Below are positions 26,059-53,570 of a DNA stretch of 57,212 bases, in pieces. The notes under the pieces are model-generated. The model made no database searches. It saw only the letters and a list, made by a program, of their open reading frames with translations, and was not told the origin of the DNA. The stretch is from Burkholderiaceae bacterium (GTDB lineage: Bacteria; Pseudomonadota; Gammaproteobacteria; Burkholderiales; Burkholderiaceae_B): the NCBI GenBank assembly GCA_017983955.1, contig JAGOAJ010000020.1:1-57212 (forward strand), given 5' to 3'. Made by a program: the position numbers and the translations under genes. Positions within the stretch are counted from its first letter, which is position 1. Each line of letters starts with the position of its first letter.

Positions 26059-27294
26059 ATGCAAGGCCTGCACCTTACCGCAGATTTATACCTATGTGCC
26101 GCAGACACGTCTTTGCTAATAGACGCCGATGCTTTAGCGGACTTGTGCCGCAATGAAACTATAGCCTCGGGTCTGACCCTGGTGGCGGAGAAGTGGTTTA
26201 CCTTTCCGGATTATCAGGGTGAGCCTGGCGGCGTGACCGGCATGTTGTTGTTGGCCGAGTCGCATTTGGCTATACATACTTGGCCAGAGCGCGGCGGCGT
26301 CACCCTGGACGTGTATGTCTGTAACTTCGAGGGCGATAACTCCTTGAAAGCCGAGCAGTTGATGGATGCCTTGGAAACGGCGTTCAAGCCTACTCAATTA
26401 CAGCGCAACCGCCTACAGCGCGGCGACGAAAATGGCCCAGTAGAAAACGGACAGCTGCTGTTGGAAAGCCTGAATGCCAATAGCGTGTATGGTTTCCGCT
26501 TTGATCGTCATGTCTTAAGTCAGCGCACACCCTACCAGCATCTGGAGTTATTGCAGTCTAGTGACCTGGGCCTGACCTTGCGCCTGGACGGCAGCATGAT
26601 GACTTCCGAGGCTGACGAATTTTTCTACCACGAAGCGTTAATCCATCCAGCCGCTGTCGCCCATCCAGCCCCACGTAATGCGCTAATCATAGGTGGTGGG
26701 GACGGTGGGGCACTGGAAGAGTTACTTAAGCACCCTTTGGATGCCGTTACCCTGATCGAGCTGGACTCAGCTGTGGTCGATGTGGCTCGCGAGCATTTGC
26801 ACAGCATACATAAGGGGGCATTTGACGACCCGCGGGTCACCATGCGTTTTGAAGACGGCGCAGCGTTTGTCACGGCTACTGATCAGCGTTTTGATTTGGT
26901 GTTCCTGGATCTGACCGATCCTGAAACGCCTGCGGGTCCTTTGTACACCCAGGCATTCTTTGAGCAATGCAAAGCCGTGTTGGCTCCGGGTGGCGCCTTG
27001 GTGCTGCATCTGGGCGCGCCATTCTACGAACCGGAACAGGTGCGCGAATTAAATGCCGCCGTGGCTGCAGCATTCAGCCAAGTGCGCGGTTACGGCCTGC
27101 ATATTCCCTTATACGGGTCTTATTGGGCGCTGACTGTGGCATCAAACGATCTGGATGCCAAGGCCATAGAAACGGCGGTTGTCCAGAAGCGCTTACAGGA
27201 ACGTGGCATAAATGACCTGAACTATTACAACGCTGAAGTTCATGGCGCGTTGTTCGCTTTGCCTAATTTCCACCGTAAGTTGGTGCAGGGGTAA
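26059..27294 (+). CDS. Fused S-adenosylmethionine decarboxylase / spermidine synthase
   Basis: 411-aa fusion catalysing two consecutive steps: SAM to decarboxylated SAM, then aminopropyl transfer to putrescine. Residues 1-~118 are a short class-1b SpeD unit: AESHLAIHTWPE carries the self-cleaving pyruvoyl serine (Ser68) and His73, and DVYVC carries Cys88, with the same 5- and 20-residue spacing as the Thermotoga enzyme (Ser63, His68, Cys83). Residues ~150-400 are SpeE: NALIIGGGDGGALEELLKHP (SAM loop), VTLIELDSAVVDVAREHL, and FDLVFLDLTDPETPAGPLYT with the catalytic Asp. SpeD-SpeE fusions are known in some proteobacteria. All catalytic positions are present, so both halves should be active. Product is a spermidine-type triamine by inference. 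Confidence 0.92.
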   Translation: MQGLHLTADLYLCAADTSLLIDADALADLCRNETIASGLTLVAEKWFTFPDYQGEPGGVTGMLLLAESHLAIHTWPERGGVTLDVYVCNFEGDNSLKAEQLMDALETAFKPTQLQRNRLQRGDENGPVENGQLLLESLNANSVYGFRFDRHVLSQRTPYQHLELLQSSDLGLTLRLDGSMMTSEADEFFYHEALIHPAAVAHPAPRNALIIGGGDGGALEELLKHPLDAVTLIELDSAVVDVAREHLHSIHKGAFDDPRVTMRFEDGAAFVTATDQRFDLVFLDLTDPETPAGPLYTQAFFEQCKAVLAPGGALVLHLGAPFYEPEQVRELNAAVAAAFSQVRGYGLHIPLYGSYWALTVASNDLDAKAIETAVVQKRLQERGINDLNYYNAEVHGALFALPNFHRKLVQG

Positions 27295-27308: not shown

Positions 27309-28106
27309 TTAATAGCCACCGCTAACTGTGTCAGGTTTCAAGTTCAGCCCGTGGACGTAACGCACGCCAGTATCCAATCGGCCATCGGGGTGCAAAGTTA
27401 ACCAGCGGTAGCCTGGGCCAGCGGCATCCAGGCTGAACTGGCTGCTGGCTGGCGTGAACTGCACACAGGTGGACGGGGTGGCTAGTAAACGTACTTCGCG
27501 ACCTTGTTGGGCATAGTGATGAACGCTGTCGTATTCCTGGTGCACATGGCCCCATAGCAAGGCGCGTACGTTTGGCAGATCCTCGATTACCTGCAATAAC
27601 TTCTGGCCATTGCTGACCATCATGGTATCCAGCCATTGGCTGCCTACAGCCACGGGGTTATGGTGCAGGGCCACTAAGATATGCTTGTTGCCCGCCTGTT
27701 GTGCCGCTGTTTTTAACAGAGCCAGTTGGTCAGGCTCCAGTGCGCCCGCATTCGAGCCAGGAATGATGGAGTCCAGTAAAACTATTCGCCAATTACCTAC
27801 ATCCGCTATCGTCTGGGCCTTATCTTGCCAGGCGTCGTGAAAATTGGCGCGTACATCGTGGTTGCCGGGTAGTCCGCGCAAGGGCGCGGGTATAGCTGCG
27901 GCTAACTGTAGAAAGCGTTGGTAGGCGGCAAGGCTGCCGTCCTGAGCAATATCGCCTGTAGCCAGTAGCAGATCCAGGCTAGGGTGGTGCACCGCAATGT
28001 CTTGCAGCACGGCGCGCAAACTCGCGTCGGTATTTACATTCAGCAACCGCCCTTCAGGATCGGCAAACAAATGCGGGTCGGTAAGCTGTACCAACGTGAC
28101 CGGCAT
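27309..28106 (-). CDS. cpdA: 3',5'-cyclic AMP phosphodiesterase CpdA
   Basis: Class III metallophosphodiesterase that hydrolyses cAMP. The motifs of the calcineurin-like fold are all present: VQLTDPHLF, LLLATGDIAQDG, LRGLPGNHDVR, VALHHNPV, LLWGHVHQEYD. Start set at the ATG giving MPVTLVQLTDPHL; the longer frame upstream reads across the divergent promoter region. 265 aa, same size as E. coli CpdA (275 aa). Divergent from an operon that encodes a class III cyclase and a cyclic-nucleotide-binding channel, which strengthens cAMP as its substrate. Ends 15 bases after the convergent speD-speE fusion. Confidence 0.88.
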   Translation of the reverse strand: MPVTLVQLTDPHLFADPEGRLLNVNTDASLRAVLQDIAVHHPSLDLLLATGDIAQDGSLAAYQRFLQLAAAIPAPLRGLPGNHDVRANFHDAWQDKAQTIADVGNWRIVLLDSIIPGSNAGALEPDQLALLKTAAQQAGNKHILVALHHNPVAVGSQWLDTMMVSNGQKLLQVIEDLPNVRALLWGHVHQEYDSVHHYAQQGREVRLLATPSTCVQFTPASSQFSLDAAGPGYRWLTLHPDGRLDTGVRYVHGLNLKPDTVSGGY

Positions 28107-28215
28107 ATTCAAATTAAGGTTAAGTTTCAAGGTATTACCACATTTAGCCCCAAAACAGGCCTGAATAAGCTGTAAACATTGCAACTTAACACAGCTTGAA
28201 GCAAAATGACCCGCT

Positions 28216-29625
28216 ATGACGACAATAACGATGAGAAAGACGGGGCGGGGGATGGCAATTAAGCAACCTAGTAGCGGCCGGCATAGACTTACGTGGCTGG
28301 TAGGGATAGGGATCAGCCTGATGCTAGGCGGCAATGCTGTGGCGCAGGTCGATAGCAGCCATCAGGCGACACTGAATCAAGCGTTGGAATGGATTAACGC
28401 CGGGCAAGCAGGTACGGCTTATAACCTATTGGCTCCTTTGGAAGCCGACCTGGCAGGCCAACCCGAATACGATTACTTGTTGGGGCAGTCTGCCTTGGGT
28501 GCGGGTCAGGCCACGCGTGCCGCCTTTGCCTTCGAGCGCTGTCTATCCGTCAACTCCTTGAATGGCTTGTGTCGTCTGGGTATGGCACGCGCCCATATTG
28601 CACTGACCGAAGTTGATAGTGCCCGGCTAGAGTTAAACACCATTGCCCAGTCGGCGCCGCCTGCCGAAGTAGAGCAGATTATTACGGATTATCTGGATGA
28701 ATTGACCGGTACGGAATCCGGTCATAGGGATACCCGTTTGCGTTCTTACGTGCAGTTGGGCGTGGGTTACGACAGCAATATTAATAATGCGACCTCGCAA
28801 AGCAGCCTAGCCATCCCGTTGTTTGACGACTTGGTCATGGGCTTAAGCCGTGAAGGGCGTAGCCGCGACAGCGGTTTTAATCAGGCAGCCTTCAACATAC
28901 GTTATTCCACCCCTATGGGCGATGGCAATTGGCGTTTTGTGGCTGATGGCAATCTGGCAGCGACCGGCAACTGGAATACCCATCGCTATAACACCGCGAT
29001 TGCCGATGTGGGCGTGGGCGCATCCTATAAAGCCTATCGTCATCAGTTCACCGGCAAAGTCCTGGGCCAGAACTACAACCTGGGCGGCCACAACTATCGA
29101 AATATGCTGGGTGTGCTGGGTCAATATGCCTATACGGTCTCTGATCAGGCTGAATTCAGCGGTTTTCTGCAGGCCAGCCAAATGCGCTACCCAGACATGC
29201 GCTTGCGTGATTCCCATCGTTATACCGGTGGCCTTTCTTGGGCCCAGGCCCTGGCAGCGAATCGGGCTGTGACCTATGCCAGCCTGTATGGCGGCTGGGA
29301 AGACACCATGCGCAGCAATGCCCCCGACAGCTACCAGCATAAATTTGCCGGACTGCGAATCGGCGGCATGTACATGGCCACGCCGCGCTTGCAATTGGAA
29401 GCCGGAGTAGGCGCGGAACGACGTCGCTACGACGGACAGGAAATCCTGTTTTTACGTCGCCGAACTGAAACCGCCTATGATGCCTACATGGGATTTAACT
29501 ATTCGCTGAATCGGAAATTGTCGCTACGGCCGCAGTATCGCTACGCGAAAACCGATTCATCCATACCGTTGCATGACTATCAGCGTCATACTTTTATAGT
29601 GAACCTGCGTTATGAACTATTCTAA
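28216..29625 (+). CDS. Outer-membrane beta-barrel protein with N-terminal TPR region (DUF560/Slam-like)
   Basis: 469 aa. A signal peptide follows a basic start (three in-frame ATGs at 28216, 28231 and 28252; the last gives a compact signal peptide, none has a textbook ribosome site). Residues ~45-165 form TPR-like helices (LNQALEWINAGQAGTAYNLLAPLEADLAGQPEYDYLLGQSALGAGQATRAAFAFERCL). The remainder is a series of amphipathic strands starting with YVQLGVGYDSNINNAT, a hallmark of TPR-barrel proteins of the DUF560 (surface lipoprotein assembly modifier) group, and ends in a C-terminal strand VNLRYELF with terminal Phe as expected for BAM insertion. Overlaps the next gene (FecR-domain) by 14 bases, so it may export or anchor that protein. 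First gene of the operon. Confidence 0.75.
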   Translation: MTTITMRKTGRGMAIKQPSSGRHRLTWLVGIGISLMLGGNAVAQVDSSHQATLNQALEWINAGQAGTAYNLLAPLEADLAGQPEYDYLLGQSALGAGQATRAAFAFERCLSVNSLNGLCRLGMARAHIALTEVDSARLELNTIAQSAPPAEVEQIITDYLDELTGTESGHRDTRLRSYVQLGVGYDSNINNATSQSSLAIPLFDDLVMGLSREGRSRDSGFNQAAFNIRYSTPMGDGNWRFVADGNLAATGNWNTHRYNTAIADVGVGASYKAYRHQFTGKVLGQNYNLGGHNYRNMLGVLGQYAYTVSDQAEFSGFLQASQMRYPDMRLRDSHRYTGGLSWAQALAANRAVTYASLYGGWEDTMRSNAPDSYQHKFAGLRIGGMYMATPRLQLEAGVGAERRRYDGQEILFLRRRTETAYDAYMGFNYSLNRKLSLRPQYRYAKTDSSIPLHDYQRHTFIVNLRYELF

Positions 29626-31111
29626 ATTTGCTGGTTTAGGTTGGCGTCAGTGCCAGCTATGGCTGCTATCGCTAGCCTGTTTGTTTTTACTGAATGGCCA
29701 GGCACTGGCCGAAGTGGCAGCCAATGTCAGCTTCGTCAGTGGCGTGGTCACAGCCAGCACCAGCGGCGCTAGCGCACGCGAACTGGCCAAAGGTAACGAC
29801 ATTTTTAGTGGCGACAGCATAGACACCGCCGACAACGGCCGCATACAAATGCGCTTTACCGATGGTGGCCTGGTTTCCCTGATGCCGCGCACCACATTTT
29901 CCGTGGATGAATACCTGCACGAAGGGAAATCCGCCGAAGACGGATCGTTGGTATTTGGCATGTTGCGTGGTGGTATGCGCACCATTACCGGTTCCATCGG
30001 CAAGATCAAGCACGAAAACTATGAACTGAAAACCCCGGTGGCTACCTTAGGGATACGCGGCACGGAATACGTTGCCGTCATAGGACCGCCTGACACCTTG
30101 CGTGTGCATGTGGGCAAGGGCAAGGTCGTTATTACCAACGATCATGGCACGCTGGAAGTACCCGAAGGTCGCAATGCCGTGGTCGTTCTGGGCAGCGCTC
30201 CAGAGTTTTCTGATCAAGGCCCGCAGTATTTGGCCGCTGGCATTGGCGGGGATAAGGCCTTGATAGCCGGGCTAATCGACCAAGATCCGTATGGGGTTGA
30301 TGTGACTTTGGATATGCCAACGGCGTTTGACGAGGCGCAGCGCTTGGCAAGTAATCCTCCACCAGGAGTCACCCCGCCTACAGGGCCTGTTGCTCCTCCA
30401 GTAACACCACCTGCTCCGCCTGTATCACCCATACCGCCTAGTGGTCCGGGTTATTTGATGGCTGGATATACAGATTTTGGATCAGGGTCTATGTCTCCAT
30501 TTAGTTCAGGGGCAACAACGTTTACCGCTACCTTTGACCAGGCCACAGGCGCTTTGCTGGATGTTATAGATTCGAATACTACCTTTGGTAGTTTGACGAC
30601 GGGTAATGTAGGATATTTGGGCGGTAACATTAGTTGGGGGGAGTTTAATGCAGGTACGGGAACTCTGTTTAATCAGTCCATATCCGGTATTAGCCCTTAT
30701 GTGACTGGTTCCGCTGTACAAACTTTGCCGACAGGAAGCCTTGGCTATAGTCTCGCGGACCCCACACATGCTACGCTTGCGCGTGGTAGTTTCGGCAGTA
30801 TAGGAACCTTGGATTCGTTCAACCTGATGATTGATGTTACGAATCTCAACTATAACTTCAACATGGGGCTGGTCATGACTGCCGATACGTTTACAGCAGC
30901 AGGCAGCGGCAGCCTTGCTTCAGGATTTCAGGATAATTTTTCCCTTACCGGAAATAGCGTTAATCAGAACGGTTCGGATTGCATGAGCAATGGTTGCACC
31001 TTCAATGCCAGCGGCTTCTTAGCGGGCCCCAATGCTGAACAGGCTGGCGTAAGTTATAACCTCAATACCGGGTTTGAGCCAATTACCGGCGCAGCAGCCC
31101 TAAGCCGCTAA
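29612..31111 (+). CDS. Secreted FecR-domain protein with Gly/Thr-rich C-terminal barrel-like domain
   Basis: 499 aa with a signal peptide ending QALAE. The FecR (LysM-like) fold spans residues ~37-210: GVVTASTSGASARELAKGNDIFSGDSIDTADNGRIQMRFTDGGLVSLMPRTTFSVDEY and VATLGIRGTEYVAVI. A Pro-rich linker (about 250-280, PPGVTPPTGPVAPPVTPPAP) leads to a beta-rich C-terminus that ends GFLAGPNAEQAGVSYNLNTGFEPITGAAAL, resembling the barrel of transferrin-binding-protein-B-like solute-binding domains. FecR/CHASE2-cyclase pairs occur widely; the FecR protein is likely the periplasmic or surface ligand-sensing partner. Four bases before the cyclase gene. Confidence 0.8.
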   Translation: MNYSKFAGLGWRQCQLWLLSLACLFLLNGQALAEVAANVSFVSGVVTASTSGASARELAKGNDIFSGDSIDTADNGRIQMRFTDGGLVSLMPRTTFSVDEYLHEGKSAEDGSLVFGMLRGGMRTITGSIGKIKHENYELKTPVATLGIRGTEYVAVIGPPDTLRVHVGKGKVVITNDHGTLEVPEGRNAVVVLGSAPEFSDQGPQYLAAGIGGDKALIAGLIDQDPYGVDVTLDMPTAFDEAQRLASNPPPGVTPPTGPVAPPVTPPAPPVSPIPPSGPGYLMAGYTDFGSGSMSPFSSGATTFTATFDQATGALLDVIDSNTTFGSLTTGNVGYLGGNISWGEFNAGTGTLFNQSISGISPYVTGSAVQTLPTGSLGYSLADPTHATLARGSFGSIGTLDSFNLMIDVTNLNYNFNMGLVMTADTFTAAGSGSLASGFQDNFSLTGNSVNQNGSDCMSNGCTFNASGFLAGPNAEQAGVSYNLNTGFEPITGAAALSR

Positions 31112-31115
31112 CCCT

Positions 31116-33389
31116 ATGTCCCAGGCCAGCCTCATCCGGGCCAGTCGCAACAACGCTGTAGTCAATGCACTGCGGCGTTACTGGCCCGGCTGGCTGGGTT
31201 TACTGCTAGTGGCGGCCTTGCTGGCCACCCATCTACTCGCCTCCCACAACCCCGCTCACAGCGGGGCGCTAAATCGACTGGACGCCTTGCTGTACGACTG
31301 GCGCTTCCAGTTACTTCCACCGCAACGGCCCGCCCGTTTACCCATAGTCATTGTTGATCTGGACGAAGCCACTCAGCGTCGCGAGGGGCGTTGGCCCTGG
31401 GACAGGGCCAAGGTAGCCGATTTGGTACTGGCCTTGCAGCAGCACGGTGCTGGCCTGATCGGGTTTGACGTGGTGTTTTCCGAACCCGGTGTTAATCCGG
31501 CTCAAGTCCTGCTGGCTGCGCCTGATCTACACTCCAACACCCGGCAGGCTTTGCGGCAATTGCTTCCTGATTTTGATGGCGATAGCACCTTGGCGGCTAC
31601 GTTAGGCAGCAATGTCTTGCTGGGCTATTTCTTCCATGCTGACGGCGGCAAGGTGGGGGCTTTGCCGTTTCCTTTTCTGGAACTGCCTGAACAGGATATC
31701 GCCCGATCAGCCCTAATCAGTCTGCCGGATTACACCAGCAACCTGCACTTATTGACTGAAAACGCATTAAGCAGCGGCTTTGTGGTGGCCGTGCCTGATG
31801 CCGACGGCATAGTGCGGCGCATGCCGCTGGCCATGCGCTATAACAACGGCGTGTATGCATCACTAACACTGGAAATGGCACGGGTGGCGCTGGGTGCGCC
31901 TTGGATCAGGCTGGCTCAGGCTGAAAACGGTGGTCAGGTGGTGGCTACCAGCCTACAAATAGGCAAGCATGTGCAGGTGCCTGTCGATGGCCGCGCCCAG
32001 ATGTTGGTGCCTTATCGTGGCAGGGCGGGGTCTTACCCGTCTATCTCCGCCACTGGCATATTGCGTGGCGATGCCCCGGCTGAACAGCTGCAGGCGCTGG
32101 ATGGGGCTTTGGTGCTGGTGGGGACATCGGCGCTGGGTTTAAGTGATCTGCGCACGGTTCCCTTGCAAACCGGCTATCCGGGGGTCGAGGTACACGCCAA
32201 TGTACTGGATACTATTTTGCAGGCAGCCTTGGGTGAAAATACCTTTTATCAGCAGCCGGACTGGGAGCCGGGCGCCACATTATTGATGTTGGTGTTGTCG
32301 GGCGTGCTGCTGGCCTTACTATTGCCTGGTCGCTCGCCTGTGTTGATGTTGCTGATGTCGGGTGGCTGGCTGGTGCTTATTGTTGGCGCTAACCTGATGT
32401 TGTGGCGCTATGCGCATTTTGCCTTGCCCTTGTCTATGCAGGTGTTGATGGTGTTGGCGTTGACGGGTTTTAATATTGCGGCCGGCTATTTAAAAACGAA
32501 TCGTCAGAAACGCGCCATACAAACCTTGTTTGGCGAGTACGTGCCAGCCGCCTATGTAGAGCGCATGGTGGCCCACCCTGATCTGGTTTCGCTAGAGGGC
32601 GAGCAGCGCGAAATGACGGTGTTGTTTGCCGATGTGCTGAACTTTACCGCCATGTCAGAAGCCTTGTCGGCGACCGAACTTAAAGATTTGTTGAATCGCT
32701 ATTTGACCGCAGTCACCCAGGTGATCTTCGAGCATAGCGGCACCATTGATAAGTACGTGGGCGATATGGTGATGGCATTTTGGAATGCGCCGCTGGATGA
32801 TGCCAGCCACGCCAACCATGCGGTAGGCGCGGCTTTGCAAATGCAGCAGCGCATGACCAGCTTGCGGGCAGCATTCCAGCAGGACGGCTTGCCCGTATTC
32901 GATATCGGCATAGGTTTGAATACCGGTTTGATGAATGTGGGCGACATGGGTTCCAGCTACCGGCGTGCCTATACGGTTATGGGCGATGCGGTCAACCTGG
33001 GCGCTCGCCTGGAAGGGGTAACCCGCTTTTATGGTTCAGGCATATTGGTCAGCGACGCCACGCGTCAGCAGGCCAGCGAATTTTTATATTGCCCGGTGGA
33101 CCGTATACGGGTCAAGGGCAAACGCGAAGCTATCGATATCTACGAACCGCTATGCCGACAGGATCAGGCCCCGCCTGAACTGATTCAGCACATGCACGTG
33201 TTTCAACAGGCTCTGGAACATTATCGTGAACGGCGCTGGGTAGACGCCCGCGAATTGTTGACTCAGTTGTTGCAACAGGACGAGGCACGTCGTGCCTTGT
33301 ATGCTTTGTATCTTCAGCGTATGGCCAGCACTGACCCAGCAAGTCTGCCGCTATACTGGGACGCTGTCTACGATCACGAGAATAAATAA
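31116..33389 (+). CDS. CHASE2-domain class III adenylate cyclase
   Basis: 757-aa membrane sensor cyclase. One N-terminal helix (WPGWLGLLLVAALLATHLLA), a periplasmic CHASE2 domain (~45-375, with RLDALLYDWRFQLLPP, PIVIVDLDEATQRREGRWPWDRA and GFDVVFSEP), three more helices (~385-455), then the cyclase domain (~490-670). Catalytic features are complete: metal Asp in VLFADVLNFTAMSE (near 503) and in DKYVGDMVMAFW (near 546), purine-specifying Asp and transition-state Asn/Arg in VMGDAVNLGARLEGV (near 621). The Lys/Asp pair predicts ATP, hence cAMP. The stop TAA overlaps the ATG of the channel gene by one base. Confidence 0.92.
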   Translation: MSQASLIRASRNNAVVNALRRYWPGWLGLLLVAALLATHLLASHNPAHSGALNRLDALLYDWRFQLLPPQRPARLPIVIVDLDEATQRREGRWPWDRAKVADLVLALQQHGAGLIGFDVVFSEPGVNPAQVLLAAPDLHSNTRQALRQLLPDFDGDSTLAATLGSNVLLGYFFHADGGKVGALPFPFLELPEQDIARSALISLPDYTSNLHLLTENALSSGFVVAVPDADGIVRRMPLAMRYNNGVYASLTLEMARVALGAPWIRLAQAENGGQVVATSLQIGKHVQVPVDGRAQMLVPYRGRAGSYPSISATGILRGDAPAEQLQALDGALVLVGTSALGLSDLRTVPLQTGYPGVEVHANVLDTILQAALGENTFYQQPDWEPGATLLMLVLSGVLLALLLPGRSPVLMLLMSGGWLVLIVGANLMLWRYAHFALPLSMQVLMVLALTGFNIAAGYLKTNRQKRAIQTLFGEYVPAAYVERMVAHPDLVSLEGEQREMTVLFADVLNFTAMSEALSATELKDLLNRYLTAVTQVIFEHSGTIDKYVGDMVMAFWNAPLDDASHANHAVGAALQMQQRMTSLRAAFQQDGLPVFDIGIGLNTGLMNVGDMGSSYRRAYTVMGDAVNLGARLEGVTRFYGSGILVSDATRQQASEFLYCPVDRIRVKGKREAIDIYEPLCRQDQAPPELIQHMHVFQQALEHYRERRWVDARELLTQLLQQDEARRALYALYLQRMASTDPASLPLYWDAVYDHENK

Positions 33390-34900
33390 TGACAGATTTC
33401 CTCGCTAATTTTACGGTGTCCTTGCACGCCGCCTGGATGCCGCACTACTTGCCCATGATGGCCTGCGTGGTCGTGCTGGGTTTCATCTTGATGCGCACTA
33501 CGCGTAGGGCATTGTTGTTTACAGTGCAGATGCTAGTGCTGTTCTTGTGCTTGGTGCTGGGCAGTGCCGTGGCCGCCAGTTTGCACGCAGCAGACATTGC
33601 ACAGGCGCTTAGCCAATTGGCTACTTTGGTGCTGGGCATGACGCTGATCCGCCAGGGTGGCCTGACGATGTTCCGGTTGGTGGTGCCCAAGCTAGGCCTG
33701 CATCCGCCACGCATACTTGAAGAACTATTGATTTTACTGGCCTATGTCGCCTGGATTTTGGTGCGCCTGTCCGCGGGCGGGTTAGACCTGGGCAGCCTGG
33801 TGGCCAGTACGGCAGTGATCACGGCCGTGCTGGCATTTGCCATGCAGGACACGCTGGGCAACATCCTGGCCGGATTGGCATTGCAACTGGATCATTCTGT
33901 CCACATAGGCGACTGGATACTGATCGAAGATATCAGCGGTCAGGTAGAGCAGGTGCAATGGCGGCACACGGCCATACGTACCTTATTTGGCGAGTTGGTA
34001 TTGGTGCCCAACAGCCAGTTAATGAAATCACGTGTCATGTTGACTGGCGGGCAGTCCGCGCCGCGCCGACTGCGTACAGTCAAATTTTATGGCAGCTTGG
34101 ATTTGTCGCCTGGATTGGTAATTTCCGAGGTGCAAAAGGCCTTGGCTAGTGCCGACTTGCCTAGTGTGGATAAGGGGGCCGGTCCAGAGTGTTTTGTGCT
34201 GGATTTTAACCACGGCATGGTGGAGTACGCCGTACGCTATTGGTTGATTAATCCCAAGGTGCCAGGCAGTACGGATTCCTTGGTACGCCAGCACGTGCAT
34301 GCCTTATTTCGTCGCAGACGCTGGCGCATGGCGGCACCTACTCAGGATGTGAACCTGGGGCGTGTCAATTCGCATCGCGAACATGAACCTACCCATTCAG
34401 GCCTAGCCTCCAGCGTTGATATCGTGCGTAGCTTGCCTTTGTTCGAACCACTGAACGATGACGAAGTTCGGCAGCTAGCCGTTGGCTTGCGTGTCATTCC
34501 TTATGTGGCGGGCAGTCTAATTACCCGCCAACACGACATTGGCGATTGTTTGTATATTTTGCTGTCCGGCAAGGTGGATGTCTGGCTGGAAGATAAGGGT
34601 AAACGGCATGCGCTGGCGGTGCTGGAACCCTTGCAAATTATGGGTGAAACCAGCTTGCTGACAGGTGAACCCCGTAGCGCTACCCTGACTGCTCGTAGTG
34701 ACGTTGAATGCTATGTCATCAATCAGGATGACTTTCAGCATACCCTGCGTAATCGCCCTGAGCTAGCCGATTCCTTTGCCCAGTTGTTGACCGATAGGCT
34801 GCAGGAACGCACCGCATTACGTGAAAAAATGCTGCAGCCTCAGGTGATCCAGCAGCAAGCCGCCATACTGACCCGTATACGCAGTCTGTTCGGCCTGTAG
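33389..34900 (+). CDS. MscS-family channel with C-terminal cyclic-nucleotide-binding domain
   Basis: 503 aa. Four membrane helices in the N-terminal third end in the pore-lining, Gly/Ala-rich TM3-like segment SLVASTAVITAVLAFAMQDTLGNILAGLALQLDHSVHIGDWILIEDISGQVEQVQWRHTAIRTL, the MscS core. The C-terminal cNBD (~345-470) contains GDCLYILLSGKVDVWLE and MGETSLLTGEPRSATLTA (near 418) with the phosphate-binding Arg in the PRSAT cassette, all residues of a working site. This is the architecture of bacterial cyclic-nucleotide-gated (bCNG) channels, of which a few have been shown to respond to cAMP rather than tension. The preceding gene encodes a cyclase and the operon faces cpdA, so cAMP is the likely ligand. 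Confidence 0.9.
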   Translation: MTDFLANFTVSLHAAWMPHYLPMMACVVVLGFILMRTTRRALLFTVQMLVLFLCLVLGSAVAASLHAADIAQALSQLATLVLGMTLIRQGGLTMFRLVVPKLGLHPPRILEELLILLAYVAWILVRLSAGGLDLGSLVASTAVITAVLAFAMQDTLGNILAGLALQLDHSVHIGDWILIEDISGQVEQVQWRHTAIRTLFGELVLVPNSQLMKSRVMLTGGQSAPRRLRTVKFYGSLDLSPGLVISEVQKALASADLPSVDKGAGPECFVLDFNHGMVEYAVRYWLINPKVPGSTDSLVRQHVHALFRRRRWRMAAPTQDVNLGRVNSHREHEPTHSGLASSVDIVRSLPLFEPLNDDEVRQLAVGLRVIPYVAGSLITRQHDIGDCLYILLSGKVDVWLEDKGKRHALAVLEPLQIMGETSLLTGEPRSATLTARSDVECYVINQDDFQHTLRNRPELADSFAQLLTDRLQERTALREKMLQPQVIQQQAAILTRIRSLFGL

Positions 34901-35024
34901 CGCTTAGGCGGCTTAAGTCGTATTTTTTGCCCATACTGTCTGTTTAGACGGGGACAAGCCATCTGCCACTGCGTATGATCATTCGATCTTTGGCTGCCTG
35001 CTATCGTAGGCTTAAGGGTGCAAA

Positions 35025-35522
35025 ATGAAAAAAATACAACTAAGTACCTTGATCCTGGGTGCGCTAATGGTCGCGCTGTCAGGTTGTGGCGATAGCACGG
35101 CTAGCGCCGTCCCTAAAGTAAGCAGCACGTATCAGAAAAAATTGGATGCGGCCTGGGATACGGCCAGCCAAGGCAAGTCGCCAACCATTTCGTGTGCCTC
35201 TGTGGTTGGGACGGCGGTAGGGATGGCGTCGTCTGGCCAAGGTAAAAAGTCAGAAGCCATCCAGGCTTATGAAGCCTGTTACGTCGATGCTTTCGTGCAT
35301 TATGCCAATGTCTATATTGCACAGCCCGATAAGGCCGCGTTGGACAAGCGTAATCAACCCGCAGGCTGCGGCACCTTGTCCACCCACGCCATGATTCATC
35401 AGGTTTCTTTGGGTGGATTTGCCAGCGATCTAGGGTTGAATACCAAAGCGTTGGCCGATAAAGCGCGTGCCGCTCTAGGCCAGGGCGCAGCGGCGTGTAC
35501 CAGCCTATTTGCTGACGATTGA
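35025..35522 (+). CDS. Small lipoprotein of unknown function
   Basis: 165 aa with a signal peptide and lipobox (VALSGC, Cys at about 21). The mature part has six Cys including the lipidated one (ISCASV, EACYVD, AGCGTL, AACTSL), suggesting periplasmic disulfides. Also IQAYEACYVDAFVHYANVYIA. No family recognised. A purine-poor site precedes the ATG at 35025. 28 bases separate its stop from the VWA-protein gene, so the two may be cotranscribed. Confidence 0.6.
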   Translation: MKKIQLSTLILGALMVALSGCGDSTASAVPKVSSTYQKKLDAAWDTASQGKSPTISCASVVGTAVGMASSGQGKKSEAIQAYEACYVDAFVHYANVYIAQPDKAALDKRNQPAGCGTLSTHAMIHQVSLGGFASDLGLNTKALADKARAALGQGAAACTSLFADD

Positions 35523-35550
35523 TCGCCACTCGCTTACTTTAGGAAGTTCT

Positions 35551-37914
35551 ATGAAACGATTGCAAGCGTGTCTGCTGGCCGGACTATTAGCAGCGTCTGG
35601 CGCTCATGTGGTGGCAGCCGAGCAGGCCATGATAGTACTGGATGCTTCCGGCTCTATGTGGGGACAAATCAACGGCAAGCCTAAGCTGCAAATTGCCCGT
35701 GAAGCCTTGGCCACCGTGTTAGAGGGCGTGCCTGCCGATATGGAACTGGGCCTGATGGCTTATGGGCACCGTGAAAAGGGCAATTGCAACGATATTGAAG
35801 TCATTATTGAACCCGCAGCGGGCACAGGTCCGGCTATTGCCAAGGCAGCGGCTCAGATGAAGTTCCTAGGTAAAACTCCCTTATCGGCCGCCGTAAAACA
35901 AGCTGCTGAAGCCCTACGCTATACCGAAGACAAAGCCACCGTCATCCTGATTACCGATGGCCTGGAAACCTGTAAGGCCGACCCCTGTGCCCTGGGGACG
36001 GAACTGGCCAAGCAAGGCATAGACTTTACGGCTCACGTCGTAGGCTTTGACCTGACCGATGCCGAAGGCAAGCAGGTTGCTTGTTTGGCGGAAAACACGG
36101 GTGGGCAGTATATTGCGGCGTCTAATGCCGATGAATTGCGCGACGCCTTGGTCAGCACCGTGGTCCAGCCCGTGATGGCGGCCAAACAGCCTGAGCCTGA
36201 AAAAGAAGTGGTACCTGTGTTACCCGAGGCCACCCTGGACCCTGACGAAAGCGCTGCCGTGGGGGCCGACATGCAGGTGAACTGGACAGGTCCTAATGCA
36301 GACAACGATTACATCGATATCGTGCCCGAAGGCCATAAAAAAACGAATGACGAATTGGCCTACACCTATACCAAGCAGGGTACGCCGCTAAGCATACGCA
36401 TGCCTGGCAAGCCTGGACCTTATCAAATACGCTATATCTGGCGCGGTACCGACAATAAACGCCATATATTGGCGGCGGTGACTGTGCAGGTGACGGATAG
36501 CGATGTTGCATTGATTGCCCCTGACACCGTGCAGGCGGGTAGCGTGATTCCTGTGGAGTGGAAGGGACCGGCGAATGCGGGTGATTATATTGACCTGGTG
36601 GTCGATGGCACCAAAGCCACCAGTGGTGAGTTGTTCTATGCCTATGCCAAGGACGAACCCACATTGGAATTAAGGGCACCTACCAAGCCGGGCAACTATC
36701 AGATACGTTATGTGCTTAGGGCTGCAGATAAGAAGCGTGTATTGGCAGATATACCCTTGGTCGTCAGTGCGGCAACTGCTACCGTTTCTATTGCAGATAC
36801 CCTACAAGCAGGCTCGCCTTTGTCGGTGTTCTGGACAGGTCCGGCAAGCAAGGACGATTACATAGATATTGTGCCGGCTGACTACAAAAAGATGGATGGT
36901 GGACTAGACTATTTTTATCCAGCCAGATCAGACGATGGTGAAACAGGCGACTTGAAAGGCCCGACCAAAGCAGGGCAGTATCTAGTGCGTTACATTTTAC
37001 GTGGTGCAGGTGCCGCGCAGATGATTGCCAGCGCGCCGCTTACCGTGACAGCATCCAGTGCTGCCTTGTCTGTGCCGGATACCCTACAGGCCGGTTCGCC
37101 TTTGTCGGTTTCTTGGACGGGTCCTGCAGGCAAGAATGATTACATAGATATCGTGCCGGCTGACTACAAAAAGATGGATGGTGGACTAGACTATTTTTAT
37201 CCAGCTAAATCAGACGATGGTGCAACCGGTGACCTGAAAGGGCCGACCAAAGCAGGGCAGTATCTGGTGCGTTACATTTTGCGTGGTGCAGGTGCCGCAC
37301 AGATGATTGCCAGCGTGCCGCTTACTGTGACGGCATCCAGTGCGACCTTATCTGTGCCGGATACCTTACAGGCCGGTTCGCCTTTGTCGGTATCGTGGAC
37401 GGGGCCTGCAGGCAAGAATGATTACATAGATATCGTGCCGGCTGATCAGAAAAAACTGGATGGTGGACTAGACTATTTTTATCCAGCCAAATCAGACGAT
37501 GGTGCAACCGGCGACCTGAAAGGGCCGACCAAAGCAGGGCAGTATCTGATTCGTTACGTTTTACGTGGTGCAGGTGCCGCGCAGATGATTGCCAGCGCAC
37601 CACTTACCGTTACCGCAGTTACCGCAAGCCTGTCTGCACCGGAAACAGCCCCGGCAACTTCACAAGTCACGGTGTCGTGGACTGGCCCAGCCGGTAAGAA
37701 CGATTACATAGATATTGTGCCGGCTGATCAGAAAAAGCTGGATGGTGGACTAGACTATTTTTATCCGGCCAAATCAGACGATGACGCAACCGGCGAACTG
37801 AAAATGCCCAAGAAACCTGGGCAATATAAGCTGCGTTATGTGCTGCGTGGCGCAGGACCTGCGCAACTGATTACCAGCCGTCCCCTGATGGTAACAGCGG
37901 CGCCCCAAGAATAA
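35551..37914 (+). CDS. Secreted VWA-domain protein with six tandem ~93-residue repeats
   Basis: 787 aa from the ATG at 35551, preceded by AGGAAG. Signal peptide (LLAGLLAASGAHVVAAE). VWA domain (~27-215) with an intact MIDAS: DASGSMWG, then LGKTPLSAA and LITDGLETC; hence a divalent-metal-dependent binding domain of the YfbK/Ca-activated-channel type. From about residue 225 on, six units of 91-94 residues follow, each built on a 'lQAGSpl.V.WTGPa..dDYIDIVPa..K...G.ldYfYp...dd....l..PtkpGqY.lRYvlrga' pattern. Units 3-6 are nearly identical in DNA and recur at exactly 282 bases, units 1-2 diverge. The repeats look like Ig-like or beta-sandwich modules for surface or periplasmic binding. Function unknown. 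Confidence 0.85.
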   Translation: MKRLQACLLAGLLAASGAHVVAAEQAMIVLDASGSMWGQINGKPKLQIAREALATVLEGVPADMELGLMAYGHREKGNCNDIEVIIEPAAGTGPAIAKAAAQMKFLGKTPLSAAVKQAAEALRYTEDKATVILITDGLETCKADPCALGTELAKQGIDFTAHVVGFDLTDAEGKQVACLAENTGGQYIAASNADELRDALVSTVVQPVMAAKQPEPEKEVVPVLPEATLDPDESAAVGADMQVNWTGPNADNDYIDIVPEGHKKTNDELAYTYTKQGTPLSIRMPGKPGPYQIRYIWRGTDNKRHILAAVTVQVTDSDVALIAPDTVQAGSVIPVEWKGPANAGDYIDLVVDGTKATSGELFYAYAKDEPTLELRAPTKPGNYQIRYVLRAADKKRVLADIPLVVSAATATVSIADTLQAGSPLSVFWTGPASKDDYIDIVPADYKKMDGGLDYFYPARSDDGETGDLKGPTKAGQYLVRYILRGAGAAQMIASAPLTVTASSAALSVPDTLQAGSPLSVSWTGPAGKNDYIDIVPADYKKMDGGLDYFYPAKSDDGATGDLKGPTKAGQYLVRYILRGAGAAQMIASVPLTVTASSATLSVPDTLQAGSPLSVSWTGPAGKNDYIDIVPADQKKLDGGLDYFYPAKSDDGATGDLKGPTKAGQYLIRYVLRGAGAAQMIASAPLTVTAVTASLSAPETAPATSQVTVSWTGPAGKNDYIDIVPADQKKLDGGLDYFYPAKSDDDATGELKMPKKPGQYKLRYVLRGAGPAQLITSRPLMVTAAPQE
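36223..37911 (+). repeat. Six tandem repeats inside the VWA-protein gene
   Basis: The Trp codon of the W-T/K-G-P motif falls at 36283, 36559, 36832, 37114, 37396 and 37678: spacings 276, 273, 282, 282, 282. Units 3, 4 and 5 share long runs of identical bases; unit 6 diverges at its 3' end and units 1-2 are old. This indicates recent duplication within a growing array, prone to copy-number change by slippage or recombination. Confidence 0.9.
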
Positions 37915-53204: not shown

Positions 53205-53570
53205 TGGTGGAGTCGGGGGGAATTGAACCCCCGTCCGCAAGCCCTCTGCAGGCAGTTCTACATGTGTAGTCAGTTAATTTTAAGTTTTAACCTTGGATTA
53301 TGCCTACTGACAGGCCTTTCCTTGGCGATTCACATCAATTTAAGAAGTGGCTGAGTGACCCAACCCTATCCGATTCTTTGTAAATGACGCTGCTGTAAGT
53401 TTTACCCTACCTGACCCAAAGACAAATCAGTGCAGCGGCTTACCGCCTTAAGCGGCTAAAGCGAAACGCTCGTCGTTGGCGTTTATAGTTTTCCAGTGGA
53501 TTTACGAGCTTACTGGTGCTCGACATGCCCTGCTCTGTTTCGTGACCCACGTCGAAGCCGGATCGACCCC
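53205..53570 (-). ncRNA. ssrA: Transfer-messenger RNA (tmRNA)
   Basis: 366-nt one-piece tmRNA that rescues stalled ribosomes. 5' end GGGGTCGATCCGGCTTCGACGTGG and 3' end CCCCCCGACTCCACCA with the encoded CCA; GGGGUCG pairs with CGACUCC in the acceptor stem (one G-U). The tag frame at 53480-53448 reads ANDERFALAA followed by TAA. The tag matches the proteolysis-tag type of Bordetella and related Burkholderiales. The T-arm-like GGGGGTTCAATTCCCCC is visible near the 3' end. Confidence 0.98.

Follow-up and report, generated by a model that had tools for sequence, protein, structure and literature searches.

The DNA analyzed here, which we call the window, is a 57 kb contig (G000:C9) from the 3.3 Mb genome of a bacterium of the Alcaligenaceae group. 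We examined a locus of five genes in it, in which cpdA, coding for a predicted cyclic AMP (cAMP) phosphodiesterase, faces four genes for an outer-membrane barrel protein, a FecR-domain protein, a CHASE2 adenylyl cyclase and an MscS-type channel with a C-terminal cyclic nucleotide-binding domain (cNBD). A preliminary description of this DNA had taken the locus for a whole signal path, a reading that the comparisons below partly support. The features are as follows.

27309-28106, minus strand: cpdA, class III (calcineurin-like) 3',5'-cAMP phosphodiesterase (predicted), 265 amino acids
28107-28215: intergenic gap of 109 bases between cpdA and the operon
28216-29625, plus strand: barrel gene (gene 1), TPR and outer-membrane beta-barrel of the SlipAM/DUF560 family (Slam, type 11 secretion system, T11SS), 469 amino acids, last residue Phe
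29612-31111, plus strand: FecR gene (gene 2), exported FecR-domain protein, 499 amino acids, predicted T11SS-type cargo
30416-31108, plus strand: C-terminal region of the FecR protein, residues 269-499, predicted handle and beta-barrel
31116-33389, plus strand: cyclase gene (gene 3), CHASE2 class III adenylyl cyclase (by residues), 757 amino acids
31245-32306 and 32607-33131, plus strand: CHASE2 domain and catalytic domain of the cyclase
33389-34900, plus strand: channel gene (gene 4), MscS-type channel with C-terminal cNBD, bCNG architecture, 503 amino acids
34502-34750, plus strand: cNBD of the channel
34643-34684, plus strand: phosphate-binding cassette GETSLLTGEPRSAT of the cNBD, channel residues 419-432
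34908-34921, plus strand: terminator-like hairpin and T run just 3' of the channel stop, possible operon end

The junctions of -14, +4 and -1 bases that the preliminary description gave for the four plus-strand genes are exact by the open reading frame (ORF) coordinates, and its gene identities (TPR/barrel, FecR, CHASE2 cyclase, MscS-cNBD channel) agree with those from Pfam and NCBIfam. cpdA is divergent from the operon, as it stated, with 109 bases between them where it gave 110. The promoter scan called no sigma-70-like site in this gap; over the whole region it found 4 sites versus 5.8 expected, which is uninformative. When the gaps of the window, the sister genome G042 and G109 were compared by eye, the operon-proximal half resembled that of G042. 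The hairpin is a weak indication of the operon end, because the region holds 14 terminator-like sites versus 8.2 (sd 2.9) in shuffled sequences. In a hydropathy window the barrel protein has one N-terminal segment, the cyclase has 1+3 segments flanking CHASE2, and the channel has four; the N-terminus of the FecR protein is a single hydrophobic segment of the export type.

Products of the five genes

The cyclase matched CHASE2 with 191.4 bits (cut-off 26.3) and Guanylate_cyc with 65.5 bits (cut-off 21.9). Residues D506, K546, D550, T620, N627 and R631 are all present and are invariant in 11 aligned sequences, the window included. We take D506 and D550 to be the metal-binding aspartates, N627 and R631 the transition-state Asn/Arg, and K546/T620 the residue pair of ATP-type enzymes. 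K546 and T620 align with the same letters in the CyaB chain 3r5g; chain 2w01, presumably a guanylate-type enzyme, has E and G at these positions. The complete set of ATP-type residues noted earlier is borne out: the K/T pair is as in 3r5g, and the metal Asp and Asn/Arg residues are intact. By its residues the cyclase is of the ATP type and would be expected to make cAMP.

The channel matched MS_channel_2nd (PF00924) with 63.6 bits (cut-off 20.2) and cNMP_binding (PF00027) with 76.3 bits (cut-off 27.5). It has the MscS pore and beta domain and the C-terminal cNBD with a phosphate-binding Arg that mark bCNG channels. The nucleotide cassette PRSAT is intact, as had been described, within GETSLLTGEPRSAT.

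CpdA scored 253.7 bits against the NCBIfam equivalog NF008359 (cut-off 225) and contains DPH, GDIAQ, GNHD, LHHNP and GHVHQ, presumably its metal-site motifs. It is a predicted 3',5'-cAMP phosphodiesterase.

The barrel protein matched SlipAM (PF04575) with 54 bits (cut-off 22) and TPR_19 with 32.1 bits (cut-off 25); the combination of a DUF560/SlipAM domain with periplasmic TPR is that of T11SS outer-membrane proteins. Among PDB sequences it found weak TPR matches only, and no Slam chain at E up to 5. The FecR protein matched PF04773 with 43 bits (cut-off 24), and the start of its gene overlaps the end of the barrel gene by 14 bases in the window, G042, G121, G101 and G092. Its C-terminus is predicted to fold, as a handle and a beta-barrel, like the Slam/T11SS cargo proteins NHBA, TbpB and fHbp. 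At the level of sequence domains no TbpBBD/lipoprotein C domain was found, and no Pfam family matched at E up to 10 in eight FecR C-termini (such barrels are reported to be rare beside some T11SS clusters). Among PDB sequences the C-terminus gave two matches, to L,D-transpeptidase-type chains, with E 0.42 and 1; its profile matched FecR proteins of other families weakly (probability 52% in set B, 0.2% in set C). Identity to the G042 protein is 89% in the FecR part and 51% in the C-terminal part.

Because a barrel of the SlipAM family stands next to a FecR protein with a cargo-like predicted C-terminus, genes 1 and 2 resemble an exporter-cargo pair of the T11SS (Slam) type, export itself being a prediction. 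This likeness is an addition to the preliminary description, which had missed it. Two other roles of the FecR protein were considered. That of an anti-sigma factor was rejected, since neither FecI nor FecA was found among the eight proteins scanned (the five genes and three neighbors). Outer-membrane proteins inserted by the beta-barrel assembly machinery (BAM) usually end in an aromatic residue. A BAM-inserted anchor is less likely because none of six aligned FecR proteins ends in such a residue, while the barrel does.

Conservation of the locus and of the cAMP pocket

The family search covered 268 genomes. The channel was present in ten of them, and in eight, from six genera (g1, g30, g14, g29, g38 and g5), it lies directly behind a CHASE2 cyclase; these are G000, G042, G109, G121, G101, G127, G092 and G944. 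In the remaining two the upstream side is hidden by a contig end, which falls inside the channel gene (G069) or about 140 bases upstream of it (G953). A single contig carries the whole five-gene set in G000, G042, G109, G121 and G101. In G127 the contig breaks off within the FecR gene, in G092 the cyclase gene is divided over two contigs, and in G944 the locus comes in two pieces. In a sample of 151 genomes, the six others with a cyclase relative of at least 58% identity (in two pieces in G092) are those with a full-length channel.

The proteins of the carriers are 46-88% identical to those of the window. The flanks differ between G000/G042, G109, G121/G101, G127 and G092, with flanking genes common to G000 and G042, and to G121 and G101. 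Part of the surroundings may be ancestral, because G037, on a contig whose end falls inside cpdA, has a fused speDE in common with G000/G042 and two further genes in common with G092. In the window this fusion is one ORF (26059-27294, plus strand) encoding, in this order, S-adenosylmethionine decarboxylase and spermidine synthase domains (SpeD-SpeE), and it adjoins cpdA in G042 and G037 too.

cpdA adjoins the block in seven of the eight carriers. Four of them (G000, G042, G109 and G092) have it divergent, while in G121, G101 and G127 it follows the block in the same orientation; it has thus been kept through a rearrangement. A relic of the locus occurs in G148 (L216, C512, 2758-4270): cpdA is kept, and an N-terminal stretch of the barrel runs in-frame into the last 30 residues of the cyclase. 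It looks like a deletion of the middle part; the channel was not found on that contig.

Relative to G042, dN/dS was 0.10 for cpdA, 0.07 for the barrel, 0.14 for FecR and 0.05 for both the cyclase and the channel; dS exceeds 1, so these values are rough. They indicate that all five genes are under purifying selection. The genes could in principle be chance neighbors, or a random block spread by one recent transfer, and it is true that all eight carriers found belong to a single family. This explanation appears extremely unlikely in view of the six genera, the range of identities, the different flanks, the two arrangements of cpdA and the purifying selection. The family comparison largely refutes it, and we rejected a chance neighborhood: the set is more than a group of neighbors in one strain, and is conserved as a block in differing surroundings.

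We also compared the cAMP pocket of the channel with other cNBDs. Its Arg is invariant in 13 aligned channels, the next residue being Ser, Arg, Val or Ala. The receptor survey gave 66 matches to PF00027 in seven genomes, of which 60 were aligned and six weak ones left out. Every one of the seven channels had the motif R-[S/R]-A-T, as did a single further protein, from G101. That cNBD protein, of 306 amino acids and with KRSAT, belongs to a small second locus (L218, C55, 3187-7348) together with two cyclase-like ORFs. Several other cNBD proteins are FNR- or Dnr-like by eye, and an antiporter-like protein of the window's own genome (by eye; L007 / L138, G000:C43) has a C-terminal cNBD without the pocket Arg. 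Judged by R-[S/R]-A-T, six of the seven genomes have no candidate cAMP receptor besides the channel. The term "self-contained", used for the circuit in the preliminary description, fits better than could be known from the window, because the channel has the only clear cAMP pocket among the aligned cNBDs of those six genomes. Relatives of CpdA are also present in family genomes that lack this CHASE2 cyclase.

As for other sources of cAMP, a second class III cyclase was absent in five of the seven genomes checked: G000 (searched at E <= 0.001), G042, G109, G121 and G092 each have a single PF00211 match. In G000, the only genome searched for it, there was no match to a class I cyclase; class IV cyclases were not searched for.

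Channels and CHASE2 cyclases beyond the family

Among named channel loci (the best 80 of 229, many with short flanks) the nearest encodes an 88% identical channel in "Alcaligenaceae bacterium strain CGII-43". In two loci, L080 and L115, a cyclase-like ORF lies 1.6 and 8 kb from the channel. Across 399 genomes of the order, the channel was found in 62 (E <= 1e-40) and a CHASE2 cyclase in 201 (E <= 1e-60), with both in 51; the association is significant (Fisher p 1.9e-8), phylogeny not being controlled. With two candidates per genome scored, inspection by eye of the matches listed revealed no further channel-cyclase pair within 10 kb in the order. The nearest among them is in G423, where about 14 kb separate the cyclase from a weak second channel. 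The idea of a universal channel-cyclase pair was rejected.

A class-level search of 331 genomes identified eight others with a channel. In G545 (L330, 7132-10922) an unrelated dCache-HAMP class III cyclase lies 5 bases upstream of another MscS-cNBD channel; the case is weak support for an independent pairing, because the cNBD of this channel lacks the pocket Arg. Loci L333, L336, L334, L335, L338 and L339 encode proteins of 1142-1382 amino acids with MscS and cNBD parts, and in the two scanned (L333 and L336) the channel part follows a periplasmic ligand-binding domain (Peripla_BP_6/ANF receptor).

From the order matches listed we chose 40 CHASE2-cyclase loci of up to 20 kb, one per genome and spread over families. 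Their usual order is CHASE2-Ser/Thr kinase, PP2C, FHA, cyclase, metallo-beta-lactamase-type (MBL) protein, in many cases a cNBD-rhodanese protein, and finally a type II secretion-type ATPase. Within 6 kb of the cyclase an MBL protein occurred in 31 of the 40 loci and a cNBD protein in 14 (rhodanese-bearing in 10), which offers an analogy for the circuit considered below; FecR occurred in six, the barrel in four, and neither the channel nor cpdA in any. The two MBL proteins scanned resemble class II phosphodiesterases. These loci (L278-L317, e.g. L281, L282) represent a widespread cluster that joins second-messenger with phosphorylation genes and merits a study to itself. Genus g35 has another arrangement: in five of its genomes (L045-L049) the gene of a large cNBD protein is convergent to FecR and a 37-39% identical CHASE2 cyclase. 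The L046 protein, the only one of these scanned, resembles FAD/4Fe-4S oxidoreductases and has two cNBDs. The wider comparison suggests that CHASE2 cyclases recur as the core of such loci, and that the sensors, phosphodiesterases and cNBD partners around them can be exchanged. In the window version the partners are CpdA and the channel.

These loci bear on the question of whether genes 1 and 2 belong to the same system as genes 3 and 4. They might be an ordinary surface-protein exporter and its cargo, merely sharing a promoter with an unrelated cyclase-channel pair, as the SlipAM membership of the barrel, the cargo-like FecR C-terminus and the fast change of that C-terminus, typical of surface proteins, would allow. 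Yet barrel and FecR adjoin CHASE2 cyclases in four of the 40 loci, all from other families (L281, L286, L295, L298); the window barrel is homologous over 430 columns to barrels adjoining other CHASE2 cyclases, including the three compared among these four. In G011 (L057), furthermore, a CHASE2 cyclase is flanked by a FecR protein and by a TPR protein that matches the barrel profile weakly and SlipAM not at all, and FecR proteins next to CHASE2 sensors are on record in sections of two papers (PMC5192318, PMC9239204). We consider a mere exporter improbable.

A different alternative accepts cyclase, FecR, barrel and CpdA as a signaling unit and assigns the role of cAMP receptor to another, unrecognized protein; the channel would be a co-transcribed osmotic safety valve and its cNBD structural. 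In Gallionellaceae, Rhodocyclales and Moraxellaceae there are related channels with no cyclase linked to them, and other cNBD proteins accompany CHASE2 cyclases elsewhere, namely the cNBD-rhodanese proteins and the large proteins of g35. The channel nevertheless travels with the cyclase in all eight genomes in which this can be decided, its pocket Arg does not vary, and six of the seven genomes have no other R-[S/R]-A-T pocket among aligned cNBDs. A safety valve is, in our view, rather unlikely.

A possible cAMP circuit and its known relatives

We lean towards a dedicated, locus-encoded cAMP circuit from envelope sensor to channel, with steps, including cAMP synthesis and channel gating, that we infer from the sequences. 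The SlipAM-type barrel would export or hold the FecR protein, and the CHASE2 domain of the cyclase would read the state of this pair in the periplasm. The cyclase would make cAMP from ATP, and cAMP would bind the cNBD of the presumably co-transcribed channel and change its opening; CpdA would destroy the cAMP and reset the system. Because cAMP would act on channel opening, the output would be a flux of ions or solutes and not transcription. The strongest evidence is the linkage in eight of eight decidable genomes together with the missing rival pocket.

Several observations weigh against this circuit, the strongest being that related channels mostly lack a linked cyclase and that CpdA also occurs apart from this locus. 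A CHASE2 cyclase is next door in only six of the best 80 of 229 named channel loci, all among the seven closest, and none adjoins the channel in 29 order-level loci (flanks up to 1.5 kb). The CpdA cut-off was passed in nine of the 151 family genomes, three of which (G148, G136 and G097) are without this intact locus, and many more CpdA relatives, with 180-225 bits, occur in genomes with no match to this channel. Conversely, the copy in G092's own locus scored 222.1 bits, just under the cut-off, and G944 has no cpdA on its two short contigs. A further CHASE2 cyclase is present in G127, and in G101 there is another, weak match to PF00211. The pocket reads PRRAT and not PRSAT in four of the seven genomes, and one G092 cNBD protein keeps the Arg in another context (RYT). 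No other canonical cAMP pocket was found among the aligned cNBDs of six genomes, a survey in which cAMP receptors without a cNBD were not searched for; the completeness of the window's genome is 94%.

If the circuit exists, it would be a bacterial cAMP pathway that ends in a channel. The locus provides the channel with a cyclase, a sensor and a phosphodiesterase of its own, in genomes in which no cAMP-type CRP was seen, and gating, signal and reset could be tested in one small system. The known clusters of FecR and CHASE2 cyclases may, as these data suggest, sense through a T11SS-like export pair. An extended version is a CRP-less reflex from surface to turgor, in which success or failure of FecR cargo export is the signal, much as the Rcs system responds to retained RcsF. 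The CHASE2 cyclase would read this signal in the periplasm, and the cell would have no cAMP receptor but the channel. We regard this version as doubtful; if true, envelope damage would be answered by ion or solute flux without a transcription step.

Elsewhere in the window, a VWA-domain protein (35509-37914, plus strand) contains a 282-base tandem repeat at 36796-37803 (3.6 copies, 87% matches), with a shorter copy in the sister genome, and a tmRNA gene with the tag ANDERFALAA lies at 53205-53570 on the minus strand.

The channel resembles bCNG channels (Caldwell 2010, Malcolm 2012), which reportedly have an MscS pore and beta domain and then a C-terminal cNBD. The order of domains is the same, but the window channel is in an operon with its own cyclase, near a phosphodiesterase. 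We know of no physiological job established for MscS-cNBD (bCNG) channels.

The Burkholderiales clusters of serine/threonine kinase, PP2C, FHA, CHASE2 cyclase, MBL and cNBD/rhodanese proteins likewise combine a CHASE2 cyclase with local phosphodiesterase-like and cNBD genes, but have another phosphodiesterase fold, another effector and no channel. As described in part of a paper on Burkholderia, the BiofilmReg operon has an exported FecR-domain protein next to a CHASE2 histidine kinase (PMC5192318); FecR beside a CHASE2 sensor is common to both systems, whereas the BiofilmReg sensor is a kinase and no cyclase is described there. In Sinorhizobium meliloti, Clr is the target of signaling by CyaD1 and further receptor-like cyclases, and the protein SMc02177 contains a FecR domain (PMC5498481). 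According to the relevant passages, the likeness lies in a receptor-like cyclase (with CHASE2, judging from a construct name) and a FecR protein of neighboring gene number; the effector there is a transcription factor of the Crp family, whereas the proposed effector in the window is a channel.

T11SS cargo proteins have, in the sections concerned, a C-terminal eight-stranded barrel after a beta pedestal or handle (PMC12282271). The window shares with type 11 secretion (Slam/DUF560) a SlipAM/DUF560 barrel and may, by prediction, share a partner with a C-terminal handle and barrel (PMC12282271, PMC8406197), but the predicted cargo bears a FecR domain, a term absent from the main text of both papers, and the pair sits in a second-messenger operon.

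A literature search found no description of channel and cyclase as one operon; the original bCNG papers were outside its reach, so absence from print is not established. The closest known set is that of Campylobacterota, where clusters of CHASE2 adenylate cyclase, phosphodiesterase, FecR and TPR genes were proposed to form one pathway (PMC9239204). All four kinds of part are present in the window, and the earlier remark that no description of the whole set was known is correct only as regards the channel, which is not named in the section on these clusters, while the other four parts had already been described together. The channel would thus be the new part of a set whose four other members that section already brings together.

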